Under the pieces are notes generated by a model that was not told the DNA's origin, did not search any database, and saw nothing but the letters and a program-made list of their open reading frames with translations. Shown here piece by piece: positions 275 through 13,174 of a DNA stretch of 13,504 bases. Position 1 is the stretch's first letter, and the number at the start of each line of letters is the position of its first letter. The DNA comes from Campylobacteraceae bacterium (GTDB lineage Bacteria > Campylobacterota > Campylobacteria > Campylobacterales > Sulfurospirillaceae): contig JALVAU010000033.1 in NCBI GenBank assembly GCA_027011025.1, forward strand, positions 1-13,504. Reading direction: 5' to 3'. The position numbers and the translations under genes are program-made.

Positions 275-1582
275 TTATGCTCCCCTTAATTGGTAAGTTA
301 TATCCCCTGCACCAAATCCTATAACCAAACCTTCATCTAGACTCTTTAGCACTTTTTTATCTTGTATGATATCAAGAGATCTTTCCTCTTTTTTTATATT
401 TTGAGCAAAGATTGGATCATATTTTTTAAACTCTTTTTGAAAATCTATCTCTATCTCCTCTTCTCCGGCACTCCAAACAGGAAGGATTATAAGTCTGTGA
501 ACATCTGAAAAACACTCTACAAAACCTTTAAGGTTATCATGAGTTCTTGTATATTTATGGGGTTGCCATATAGCAGTTATCTTTTTCAATCCCATCAATT
601 TTGCATATTTTTTAGCAGAATTCATCGTAGCTCTTATCTCTGTCGGATGGTGTCCATAGTCATCTATCAAAGCAAAATCACTATTTTTTTGGATAATATC
701 AAATCTTTTTTTAATGCCTCTGTAATTTTTTAACCTCTCTTTTGTGCTTTGCAAATCTCTCTCACTCAAACTTGCCAAAATCGCCAAAGATGCGTCTAGC
801 GCTATATGTTCGCCTATCCCCCAAACCTCAAAACTTCCTAAATCTTTTAGGTTAAATGAGGTAAAAGGCTCACCATTTTTGATGATAGTTTTAATATCCT
901 TTATATCACGACTCGGATATAGTCTTATCGCCTCCATATCATCAAGCGTACAGAGAAAACTATCTTCTGCATTTATCACTCTGATAGTGGCACTTCTTAA
1001 AAACTGTTTGTATGCACCGTAAAATCTTTTCAAATCATAATTATAGTACTCCATGTGTTCTGGTTCAGCATTTGTGACTACGGCGACATAAGGGTTTGAG
1101 TTTAAAAAACTCTCATCACTCTCATCTGCTTCAAATATGATATTGTTACTCACTTGATAGTGCATATTTGTATCAAATTGCTTACTTTCAGCTCCGATAA
1201 TAACACTTCCCTCAACCATAGATGCTAACATCGCACTTGTAGTGCTCTTTCCATGAGCTCCACAAGTCGCAAAAACTCTCCTATCCTTTAGTATAAAAGG
1301 TAAGGCATCCTTTCGTGACAGTGTTAATATACCCCTTTTTCTAGCCTCTATTAACTCTGGATTATCATCTTTTACTACTGCTGTGTATATCACAATATCT
1401 TGATTTTGGATATTTTTTTGGTGATGCGGGACATCTACTTTTATCCCCTCTTTTATCAATTTTTTTGTAATTTTTGTCTCTCTTATATCCGAGCCACTTA
1501 CCTCAAATCCCTCTTTTTTAAGGTATAGGGCAAGTGCTGAGAGTCCTATGCCACCAATTCCTACAAAATGGATATATTTCAT
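275..1582 (-). CDS. murC: UDP-N-acetylmuramate--L-alanine ligase MurC
   Basis: Cytoplasmic ATP-dependent ligase that adds L-Ala to UDP-MurNAc, the first amino acid of the peptidoglycan stem peptide. The 435-aa product begins with the Rossmann-like motif MKYIHFVGIGGIG (residues 1-13). It then shows the Mur-ligase P-loop ATCGAHGKST (105-114), the acidic motif EADESDES (151-158), NAEPEHMEYY (171-180) and the C-terminal domain motif DDYGHHPTEIRA (307-318). Size is normal for a short epsilonproteobacterial MurC. I chose the ATG at 1582 because the conserved N-terminus begins there and GAGGGG sits 8 nt upstream. An in-frame ATG at 1603 would add MGRGDNN, which is encoded by the inserted element and is probably spurious. 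The gene lies just downstream of that element and 1 nt before the next membrane protein gene. Confidence 0.96.
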   Translation of the reverse strand: MKYIHFVGIGGIGLSALALYLKKEGFEVSGSDIRETKITKKLIKEGIKVDVPHHQKNIQNQDIVIYTAVVKDDNPELIEARKRGILTLSRKDALPFILKDRRVFATCGAHGKSTTSAMLASMVEGSVIIGAESKQFDTNMHYQVSNNIIFEADESDESFLNSNPYVAVVTNAEPEHMEYYNYDLKRFYGAYKQFLRSATIRVINAEDSFLCTLDDMEAIRLYPSRDIKDIKTIIKNGEPFTSFNLKDLGSFEVWGIGEHIALDASLAILASLSERDLQSTKERLKNYRGIKKRFDIIQKNSDFALIDDYGHHPTEIRATMNSAKKYAKLMGLKKITAIWQPHKYTRTHDNLKGFVECFSDVHRLIILPVWSAGEEEIEIDFQKEFKKYDPIFAQNIKKEERSLDIIQDKKVLKSLDEGLVIGFGAGDITYQLRGA

Positions 1583-1585
1583 ATT
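1574..1585. repeat. 12-bp direct repeat, copy 1 (at the murC start)
   Basis: ATATTTCATATT on the plus strand, identical to 1690-1701. This copy holds the murC start codon and codons 2-3 (Met-Lys-Tyr). The two copies flank a 104-bp segment, as expected for a target-site duplication. Twelve identical bases 104 nt apart, in exactly this arrangement, are unlikely by chance even in AT-rich DNA. Confidence 0.75.
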
Positions 1586-1698
1586 ATTGTCCCCTCTGCC
1601 CATAAATGCAACTTTAAGATTTTGTGCCCTTTTGAGGAAAAATTTATGGGCAGATTCCTCGCCACTGTTGCACGAGCTGTCGCTCTGTAATATTTCAT
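1579..1698 (-). CDS. Possible 39-codon leader peptide created by the insertion
   Basis: The upstream repeat copy carries a duplicate of the murC start (ATG AAA TAT) at 1698. From there the frame stays open through the whole element for 39 codons (start MKYYRATARATVARNLP, end LHLWAEGTII) and stops at TGA 1581-1579, overlapping the murC ATG at 1582 as ATGA. The start lies 3 nt after the aminotransferase stop, where the ancestral murC start would have been, so ribosomes arriving from the aminotransferase could translate it and be delivered to murC. The peptide is basic and matches nothing I recognise; it is probably a coupling device or an accident rather than a functional protein. Confidence 0.35.
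   Translation of the reverse strand: MKYYRATARATVARNLPINFSSKGHKILKLHLWAEGTII
1586..1689. mobile_element. 104-bp palindromic insertion element between aminotransferase and murC
   Basis: The segment lies between two copies of a 12-bp direct repeat. Taking it out with one repeat copy would place the murC ATG 3 nt after the aminotransferase stop, matching the tight spacing elsewhere in the operon. It holds a 13-bp perfect inverted repeat (1595-1607 with 1642-1654) and a GC-richer tail (about 1655-1687), unlike the surrounding AT-rich intergenic DNA. It is too small to encode a transposase. I see no clear terminal inverted repeats; the ends instead carry a similar direct motif (TGTCCCCTCTG near 1588, TGTCGCTCTG near 1678). 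Two of its three minus-strand frames are fully open. It could be a MITE-like or REP-like dispersed element; the class is inference. Confidence 0.6.
1595..1654. repeat. 13-bp perfect inverted repeat inside the element (murC leader hairpin)
   Basis: TCTGCCCATAAAT (1595-1607) pairs exactly with ATTTATGGGCAGA (1642-1654) across a 34-nt loop. In the murC-sense transcript the 3' arm ends just before and partly overlaps the GAGGGG Shine-Dalgarno, so the stem could limit access to the ribosome site. There is no following U-run in the operon direction, so it is not a typical intrinsic terminator. Confidence 0.8.
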
Positions 1699-1701
1699 AT
1701 T
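1690..1701. repeat. 12-bp direct repeat, copy 2 (after the aminotransferase stop)
   Basis: ATATTTCATATT, identical to 1574-1585. It directly abuts the aminotransferase TAA stop (1704-1702). On the minus strand it reads AATATGAAATAT and so contains a second ATG-AAA-TAT. Confidence 0.75.
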
Positions 1702-2832
1702 TTAATTTCTCTCTTTGATAAAATTGCCTATTTGGATCAAGGCTTCTTTGGTTTTCTCATTGTCTTCAACTAGTGCTATACGAACATAAGCACTTCCTAT
1801 TCCCTCTCTTCCTAGGAAGCTTCCGGGCAATACTTTTATATTTTTCTCTTTATATAGTTTTTTTGTAAACTCTAAATCATTTTCTACTTTTAGCCAAACA
1901 TAAAATGTTGCCCTACTCTTTTCTACGCTCAAAATATCGCTTGCTAATTGTAGATTTTTTCTATAAATTTCTCTTGATTTCTCTACATGCTCTTCATCGC
2001 TCCATGCAAGTGAAGCCGCGTATTGTAGCGGGAGAGGAACTGCTACTCCCACATATGTTCTATATTTTAAGTACTCCTTTAAAATAGAACTATCACCTGC
2101 TATGAATCCAGATCTAAGTCCTGGAGCACTACTTCTTTTTGAGATAGAATTGATAACCAACACATTTTTAAAGCTCTCATTTCCGGCCATGATACTAGCT
2201 TGCAAGAGTGACGGTTGTGGCTCATCGCTGTATATTTCACTATAACACTCATCATTTAACAAAACAAAGTTATATCTTAGAGCTAACTCTACCCATTTGG
2301 ATAGTTCATCCAGAGTCATAGTTGATGCTGTTGGGTTATTTGGAAAATTTAAAATTACTAAATTTGCCTCTTTAAGTCTCTCATCACTGATATCAGGCTT
2401 AAAATCGTTCTCTTTTGTTAAATCAAGATAGATGATATCAGCCCCACACATTTGGGCCGCACCTTCATATATCTGATAGAACGGGTTTGTAAAAGCTATC
2501 TTTGGATTAGATATATCAAAAAGTAAAAATTGTGGAAAATTAAACAAAACTTCCCTTGTACCAAAGGTTGGTATAAGCTCATCATCTCCTAGTTTTACAC
2601 CAAATCTATTTTTGACAAATTTTAGTTGGGCATCTTTTAGATATTTTTCACCCGCCGTTTTTGGATATTTTTTTAGTAAATCTGTGCTTTTCTTTAATCC
2701 CTCTTGTATAAAGTTAGGTGTATGAAACTGCGGTTCTCCTATGGTTAGCACCCTAGGAGGAAATTCGCAAGAGGGCTCTATATCCTTTAATAACTCACTC
2801 AATTTTTCAAATGGGTATTTTTCAAATTTCAA
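1702..2832 (-). CDS. dapC: PLP aminotransferase, class I/II, probable succinyl-diaminopimelate transaminase
   Basis: A 376-aa fold-type I PLP enzyme. Visible motifs are NFPNNPT (162-168, cofactor Asn166), LLNDECYSEIY (191-201, Asp194 and Tyr197), the Schiff-base lysine in NSISKRSSAPGLRSG (Lys232), and the C-terminal substrate-carboxylate arginine in SAYVRIAL (Arg351). The KRS-x-PGLRSGF block is the form I associate with DapC, which transaminates N-succinyl-2-amino-6-oxopimelate in lysine/diaminopimelate synthesis. An aspartate aminotransferase is the alternative, and substrate cannot be settled from motifs. A role in making mDAP would fit its position before murC. The start is TTG at 2832, overlapping the TGA of the upstream small gene by 4 nt (TTGA), with GGAG 8 nt upstream. 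I recall an aminotransferase next to murC in Helicobacter too. Confidence 0.85.
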   Translation of the reverse strand: MKFEKYPFEKLSELLKDIEPSCEFPPRVLTIGEPQFHTPNFIQEGLKKSTDLLKKYPKTAGEKYLKDAQLKFVKNRFGVKLGDDELIPTFGTREVLFNFPQFLLFDISNPKIAFTNPFYQIYEGAAQMCGADIIYLDLTKENDFKPDISDERLKEANLVILNFPNNPTASTMTLDELSKWVELALRYNFVLLNDECYSEIYSDEPQPSLLQASIMAGNESFKNVLVINSISKRSSAPGLRSGFIAGDSSILKEYLKYRTYVGVAVPLPLQYAASLAWSDEEHVEKSREIYRKNLQLASDILSVEKSRATFYVWLKVENDLEFTKKLYKEKNIKVLPGSFLGREGIGSAYVRIALVEDNEKTKEALIQIGNFIKERN

Positions 2833-12766: not shown

Positions 12767-12842
12767 GACTCGTTAGCTCAGCCGGTAGAGCATCTCCCTT
12801 TTAAGGAGGTGGCCGTTGGTTCGAATCCAACACGGGTCACCA
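12767..12842 (+). tRNA. tRNA-Lys (anticodon TTT)
   Basis: A 76-nt cloverleaf. The acceptor GACTCGT pairs with ACGGGTC (one G-U), D arm GCTC/GAGC, anticodon stem TCTCC/GGAGG with loop CTTTTAA (anticodon TTT), T arm GTTGG-TTCGAAT-CCAAC, discriminator A and encoded CCA. It is the first tRNA after the consensus promoter. Confidence 0.97.
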
Positions 12843-12852
12843 TTTTTTGTGC

Positions 12853-12928
12853 GACCCCATCGTCTAGTGGTCCAGGACCCCGCCCTTTCACGGCGGTAAC
12901 AGGGGTTCAAATCCCCTTGGGGTCGCCA
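12853..12928 (+). tRNA. tRNA-Glu (anticodon TTC)
   Basis: A 76-nt cloverleaf. The acceptor GACCCCA pairs with TGGGGTC, anticodon stem CCGCC/GGCGG with loop CTTTCAC (anticodon TTC), T loop TTCAAAT, discriminator G and encoded CCA. It begins only 10 nt after tRNA-Lys, so the two are surely processed from one transcript. Confidence 0.97.
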
Positions 12929-12975
12929 TACTTTAGTAAAAGTATCCTGGACAAGATTACTTATCATTGTTAAAT

Positions 12976-13051
12976 GGTCGTTTAGCTCAGTTGGTAGAGC
13001 GCCACCCTTACAAGGTGGATGTCAGAAGTTCGAGTCTTCTAACGACCACCA
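12976..13051 (+). tRNA. tRNA-Val (anticodon TAC)
   Basis: A 76-nt cloverleaf. The acceptor GGTCGTT pairs with AACGACC, D arm GCTC/GAGC, anticodon stem CCACC/GGTGG with loop CTTACAA (anticodon TAC), T arm AGAAG-TTCGAGT-CTTCT, discriminator A and encoded CCA. It follows tRNA-Glu by 47 nt. Confidence 0.97.
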
Positions 13052-13097
13052 TTTAGTGACACTTTGTTTAGATTTATCTAGGCATTGCTTATAGGTT

Positions 13098-13174
13098 GCG
13101 GCGGTAGTTTAGTTGGTTAGAATATCGGCCTGTCACGCCGAGGGTCGCGAGTTCGAGTCTCGTCCGCCGCGCCA
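13098..13174 (+). tRNA. tRNA-Asp (anticodon GTC)
   Basis: A 77-nt cloverleaf. The acceptor GCGGCGG pairs with CCGCCGC, anticodon stem TCGGC/GCCGA with loop CTGTCAC (anticodon GTC), T arm GCGAG-TTCGAGT-CTCGT, discriminator G and encoded CCA. It follows tRNA-Val by 46 nt. A run of seven Ts begins just after the CCA, but no independent GC hairpin precedes it. Confidence 0.97.

Follow-up and report, generated by a model that had tools for sequence, protein, structure and literature searches.

The element at the dapC-murC junction

The window analysed here, a stretch of 13,504 nucleotides from a Campylobacteraceae bacterium of the Sulfurospirillaceae (contig JALVAU010000033.1 of assembly GCA_027011025.1), carries on its - strand the dapC gene for succinyldiaminopimelate transaminase (1702..2832) and, downstream of it, murC (275..1582), with a small element lying between the two. 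As reported in a preliminary description of this DNA, 104 bp separate two exactly matching copies of a 12-bp direct repeat, ATATTTCATATT (1574-1585 and 1690-1701), and the segment holds a perfect 13-bp inverted repeat (1595-1607 and 1642-1654). It was also correctly observed there that standard terminal inverted repeats are absent. Read on the - strand, the segment comprises, in order, the operon-upstream copy of the direct repeat, AATATGAAATAT (1690..1701), which contains the start codon of a leader ORF (1696-1698). This is followed by hairpin 1, GAGC-GACA-GCTC (1674..1685), whose stem takes the same position in 67/70 A-type copies of the family described below, by the linker GCAACAGTGGCGAGGAAT (1654..1671), by a long form of hairpin 2 (1595..1654) built on the 13-nt arms, by GAGGGGACAAT, and finally by the operon-downstream AATATGAAATAT (1574..1585), within which lies the murC ATG (1580-1582). 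The Shine-Dalgarno (SD)-like end of the element, GAGGGG within GAGGGGACAATAATATG (1591..1596), lies at the distance from the start codon that is usual for the family. The leader ORF (1579..1698, 39 codons) stays open throughout, and its TGA stop overlaps the murC ATG. Hairpin 1, the SD-like tail, the leader ORF, the ribosome-binding site thus supplied and the position of the family at start codons are additions to the preliminary description.

Across the whole window, a 12-mer is repeated within 200 nt at one further place only (9337/9355, of low complexity), and there is no other perfect 13-nt inverted repeat with a spacer of up to 60 nt. The + strand of 1574-1701 is predicted to fold at -35.1 kcal/mol (z -5.0; equalled by 0/200 shuffles), the transcribed - strand more weakly, at -28.0 kcal/mol (z -2.1; equalled by 6/200 shuffles). 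Elsewhere in the window, four consecutive tRNA genes (Lys, Glu, Val, Asp) occupy 12767-13174, and a predicted - strand ORF at 12773-12967, which overlaps two of them, is probably spurious.

Copies, empty sites and distribution

The preliminary description took the segment for an insertion, and both the copies and the empty alleles that this implies were found. A search of the own genome with the 104-bp segment returned 16 matches (E<1e-4) besides the segment itself. Among ten genomes of the genus, the dapC-murC junction is empty in seven, carries the element in two (G000 and G004) and retains a truncated relic in one (G003). For wider counts a covariance model (R1) was used, which covers the second half of the unit and contains no start codon, each count referring to the units among at most 150 candidates scored per genome. 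By this measure there are at least 32 units in the own genome, at least 112, 101 and 78 in the congeners G006, G005 and G003, respectively, and at least 14-41 in the other six. Units without a tail are under-counted by R1, since its source patterns include the tail GGGGACA. Several contigs end within tandem units (C64, C78, C33 and C45 of G005; C26/C27 and C142/C143 of G023), so the units probably break assemblies, which would lower the counts further.

An exact pattern searched against 84,980 species genomes found 92 stretches, all of them, by record title, in Sulfurospirillum or in Campylobacteraceae, Campylobacterales or Campylobacterota bacteria; Sulfurospirillum arcachonense DSM 9755, a member of the Sulfurospirillaceae in the NCBI placement, is among them. 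Within the same family, R1 recovered 6-49 units per genome in genera g2 and g5 (nine genomes) and 0-3 per genome in g3 and g4 (five genomes), among the candidates scored, and no units among the candidates scored in four genomes of other families. On these sequence comparisons the murC insert belongs to a family of two-hairpin repeats that is found in environmental bacteria of the Sulfurospirillaceae. A phage or plasmid origin was also considered and rejected, as blastn with one tandem array matched nothing in collections of phages and plasmids, and a search of viral contigs with one exact pattern was likewise negative.

Orthologous sites are occupied by units in several genomes in 37 pairs, so that part of the unit set has been inherited and is not the product of fresh insertion. 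Hairpin 2 is slightly more similar within a genome than with shuffled genome labels (0.623 vs 0.598, p 0.001), and its similarity is highest at the identical locus in different genomes (0.72, 37 pairs), a pattern that points to inheritance in part and to spread or exchange inside genomes in part.

Anatomy of the unit

The family unit measures about 80 nt (range 77-116, the window copy being 116) and is often found in tandem. From start codon to start codon, 30 of 57 ATG-headed units measure 83 nt and seven 80 nt, with the window-like ones at 116 nt; the simplest arrays have a period of 80-83 nt, and 10/21 arrays in a scan of the congener G003 contain more than one unit. The order of parts is hairpin 1, a linker with the consensus GCTTTAGTCGCGAGGAAT, hairpin 2 and then AAAGGGGACANTNA. 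A-type units open with a start codon (e.g. ATGAANNN-TACAGA) and B-type units do not. The end of the unit supplies the SD-like AAAGGGGACA, represented in the window copy by GAGGGGACA. An inner-unit subtype ends in AAGATGACA and not in AAGGGGACA, and hence lacks the SD, as seen in arrays of G006 (e.g. L091, L191, L200, L203 and L204). In the G003 array at C27:134574-134709 the last unit is also of the SD-less subtype, and the start codon lies 23 nt further on.

Both stems are kept while their arms vary. For hairpin 2, pairing is seen in 92% of cells against 70% with shuffled partners, and the covariation score is 0.61 against 0.22, the structure having been drawn from the very sequences used for the test. 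A hairpin 1 stem of at least 4 bp is present in 67/70 A-type and 77/80 B-type units, compared with means of 41.4 and 34.9, respectively, when the 3' halves are shuffled.

Position at start codons

In G003, 752 kb on five contigs (about one third of one MAG) were scanned without regard to gene positions, yielding 35 units of at least 25 bits in 21 arrays. In 18 of these 21 the tail ends 4-5 nt before a start codon that opens an ORF of 60 codons or more, against about 0.03 arrays expected by chance in a span of 4-6 nt. The remaining three have a start at 11 nt, a start at 23 nt and an ATG opening a shorter ORF, and all 21 lie in gene orientation. In other genera (G013, G019, G014 and G017), 34/42 units have a start codon 4-6 nt downstream, these 42 coming from stretches around well-scoring matches among the 137 model matches in the four genomes. 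No start codon opening a 50-codon ORF is found at that distance for the other eight, which comprise two inner array units, a unit abutting a 16S rRNA gene (L386), a contig-end unit of the same sequence (L385:14-63) and four other exceptions. The L386 unit (258-307, in G013, taken as S. arcachonense) directly adjoins the 5' end of the 16S rRNA gene, where ATGGAGAG of the gene itself occupies the usual place of the start codon; a unit at an untranslated gene is unexplained by a view based on translation only. In a raw scan with the core, 102 of 138 groups have an ORF start after the tail, and the other 36 include some genuine exceptions alongside long-hairpin variants, contig ends and chance matches to coding sequence. 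As the units are related, none of these counts is made of independent cases.

A leader frame open through the element

In 55 of 57 distinct ATG-headed units, the leader ORF terminates from -5 to +1 relative to the start codon that follows, and in 41 of those 55 the stop is the TGA of RTGA. Of the two exceptions, one leader stops at -36 and the other passes an ill-called start. After similar units were collapsed, 40/42 leaders stop at the next start (to -6), compared with 21/84 for the other two frames. Where the next start stands in an ATGG context, the leader stop was found directly before it in the units examined. The core of the unit is read in all three frames (RALVARN, CFSREEF and VLQSRGIF), for which reason a conserved peptide product was rejected. 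In the one frame in which the usual CTTTAG of the core would stop translation, 8/8 units have CTTCAG, so that TAG occurs in 0/8 units vs 28/49 elsewhere (p 0.0045), and in 0/6 vs 20/36 after collapsing (p 0.022). Of the arrays headed by an A-type unit, 49/51 have a frame that stays open to the end of the last unit, as do 42/58 of those headed by a B-type unit, where the head start codon is missing. The latter thus give less support to a leader translated through to the gene, and such a mechanism would not account for every one of them.

The genes behind the arrays start with RTGA in 92/98 cases; as a background, 210/389 ATG-started genes of G003, with starts called by a crude rule, begin with ATGA. 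Since units that face an ATGG context stop directly before it, this surplus of RTGA starts may reflect either the choice of target or the need for the stop and start to overlap.

The insertion point and the flanking repeat

Filled sites at 31 loci, a number of them orthologous to each other, were matched with empty ones in 55 comparisons; at least two of the comparators are not empty (L048 against itself and L146 against L014), and one has a tail-like ribosome-binding site (L329, compared with L213). The left homology ends exactly after RTGA at 8/31 filled loci, that is, at start+4 in 13 comparisons (eight loci, seven genes); in the other comparisons it ends earlier, or extends up to +8, the last position compared. 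At hisH, the filled allele reads ..CTCAAGTGA / AATTATACAG .... GTAGA GTGATAGGG and the empty one ..CTTAAGTGATAGGG, so that the stop of the upstream gene and the downstream start are both retained. This case argues for duplication, because a codon carried by the element would be ATG.

The start codon could either be duplicated from the target or belong to an ATGA that the element carries. The preliminary description had proposed a 12-bp target duplication, of which the exact 12-bp repeat stands and the clean duplication is supported only in part, for filled and empty sites usually share RTGA only. Against duplication, the flanking RTGN differs in 5/39 pairs (L087, L090, L158, L196 and L197), and the left flank of L394 has ATGA, its right flank GTGA. 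All six nucleotides after the start codon match in 5/39 pairs, two of these being the orthologous murC copies. The match beyond RTGA is modestly above that of shuffled pairs for all pairs (n=38, p 0.003), for single units (n=20, p 0.004) and for single units without murC (n=19, p 0.009), and shows no excess in tandem arrays (n=18, p 0.27). Moreover, much of the 12-bp match can be the element's own ends, since heads like ATGAAATAT-TACAGAGC recur in other copies. The sister murC allele (L048, on C58 of G004) has a flanking repeat of 20 bp and not 12, which includes the ribosome-binding region GAGAAATTAAT instead of the usual GGGGACAATAA. With flanks that vary and sometimes differ, the 12 bp seen here are not to be taken as a fixed target duplication.

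A proposed translational relay and its alternatives

The explanation that we consider the probable one, as a joint reading of these findings, is that of a non-autonomous two-hairpin mobile repeat which sits at exact start sites and hands translation on to the host gene through its leader ORF. After insertion, the old ribosome-binding site of the gene would drive the start codon of a leader ORF running through the element; the leader would terminate at the start codon of the host gene or no more than 5 nt away from it, and the SD-like end of the element (AAAGGGGACA; here GAGGGGACA), 4-6 nt before that start, would let ribosomes re-initiate on the gene. In a congener the 16S-like end reads GGATCACCTCCTTT, which we take to be the 3' end of the 16S rRNA, and AAAGGGG can pair to it with one G-U. 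The dispersal of the units, their empty alleles, their position, the kept stems, the open leaders and the avoidance of an in-frame TAG are established from the genomes compared; translation of the leader, re-initiation as the reason why the units are tolerated in operons, and a service of the hairpins to mobility are what we infer from them. To a more specific proposal we give about even chances, namely that insertion is directed to start sites and that the repeat survives by being translated through. The leader cistron, the stop overlapping the start and the new ribosome-binding site that it brings would then allow it to enter essential operons at low cost, to expand in tandem and to reach tens of copies per genome.

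One alternative is that the units are cis-acting regulatory RNAs (attenuators, thermometers or protein-binding leaders) spread by selection as a regulon, in which case tandem units would be repeated sensors and mobility incidental. Stems that are kept while the arms change, the place of the units before start codons and the many sites common to several species would all agree with it. We nevertheless hold it to be unlikely, as an RNA switch needs no open leader frame, orthologous junctions are often empty, and no Rfam 15 family reaches its gathering score at 12 loci with units. Moreover, of 14 own-genome genes behind units that were scanned, two matched no family and the 12 that did have no common theme (murC, hemN, leuA, hisH, an MTA/SAH nucleosidase, a GspE/PilB-type ATPase, a YciA-like thioesterase, a response regulator, guaA, LL-DAP aminotransferase, gcvH and a nucleotidyltransferase). 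A known RNA family was likewise rejected for the window copy, none reaching the gathering score; positions 1400-1900 gave only two sub-threshold Rfam matches, one of them at the copy. The preliminary reading, in which a small insertion of an ordinary kind duplicated 12 bp of its target and fell at a start codon by chance, draws on the exact repeat at the window copy, on the 5/39 pairs identical in all six nucleotides after the start codon and on the excess beyond RTGA over shuffled pairs. Nearly all arrays lie at starts, however, and the differing RTGN in 5/39 pairs, the lack of an excess in tandem arrays and the 20-bp repeat of the G004 sister allele make this the least probable of the readings.

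As to the mover, the units could be non-autonomous substrates of Y1/RAYT (IS200/IS605-like) transposases, moving as single strands and cut next to RTGA, an idea that we find doubtful, though somewhat less so than chance insertion. Two subterminal hairpins and a conserved foot sequence are in its favour, in a layout that resembles the one in the available part of PMC6006769, and PF01797 proteins occur in 39/44 genomes of the family. The RAYT-like genes in L341 (G013) and L342 (G007) are flanked by AAAGGGGACAGGCTAC and that in L347 (G010) by GGGGACAGGCTAC, the flanks having (AAA)GGGGACA in common with the element end and AAA preceding GGGGACAGGCTAC in two of the three. However, PF01797 has no match in G021 (98% complete), G016 (99% complete), G000 or G004, genomes with at least 49, 6, at least 32 and at least 41 model matches, respectively. 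Genus g3 has RAYTs just as often, with 0-2 units in the four genomes tested; the foot of hairpin 2 is without GT[AG]G, and a unit at E<0.001 lies in just 1/20 RAYT-bearing loci. Separately, RAYT number was dismissed as an explanation of unit copy number, as no such relation was seen across the genomes compared.

If translation is indeed handed on through the leader, the repeat would settle in operons of essential genes and leave these active, ribosomes being kept moving and then restarted at the host gene. Its copies would then offer a natural series of translation-coupling cassettes that vary in SD, stop/start overlap and hairpins, together with a testable case of insertion directed to start codons. 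With at least 42 model matches in G013, taken as the cultured S. arcachonense DSM 9755, such tests could be made at the bench.

Comparison with known repeat families

A literature search, mostly without subscription papers, found no description of this repeat or of repeats directed to start codons. Several known systems nevertheless resemble it. Rickettsia palindromic elements (RPEs) are small palindromic repeats of many copies, tolerated because the host frame continues, according to the accessible portion of PMC10969869, and similarly the present unit is small, palindromic, multicopy and compatible with a continued reading frame. RPEs, however, are inserted in frame inside ORFs and fused into proteins with a conserved peptide, whereas the present units end before the gene, with their own stop and SD. 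Pneumococcal BOX elements, in the part of PMC3049150 at hand, are modular, tandemly expandable and transcribed, and may contain ORFs; modular build, tandem expansion and possible ORFs are thus common to both. The comparison is one of descriptions and not of sequences, the host groups are unrelated, and no such position at start codons is described in that part. REP sequences have hairpins with exchanged arms and a high copy number, some lying at ORF ends or starts (PMC3733652, in part), as is seen here. Their definition, as far as the accessible text of PMC6006769 and PMC3733652 goes, includes a tag, GT[AG]G or CGTC, at 0-2 nt from the foot of the hairpin; hairpin 2 has no such tag, its foot being GAGGAAT and AAAGGGGACA (by eye, 40 aligned units). 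The present family also differs from REPs and REPINs in having two hairpins and an SD in fixed order, always oriented with the gene in the 21 G003 arrays, and in the near absence of units at RAYT loci (the 1/20 given above).

Similarly to MITEs, the element is short, non-autonomous and dispersed, with empty sites in relatives; it differs from them in having an inner hairpin as the only inverted repeat around the insert, in place of terminal ones. Where MITEs have a target duplication of constant length, the flanking repeat is here RTGA, 12 bp or 20 bp depending on locus and allele, and RTGN differs in the 5/39 pairs given above. Two hairpins are present, subterminal hairpins at both ends being a feature of IS200/IS605-type elements, and the unit of 77-116 nt encodes a short leader ORF only and no TnpA. 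The habit of the family is therefore close to that of MITEs, REPs, BOX elements and RPEs, and it departs from MITEs, REPs and RPEs in a defining feature tested for each; insertion directed to start codons, if proven, would make it more than a variant of these known kinds of repeat.
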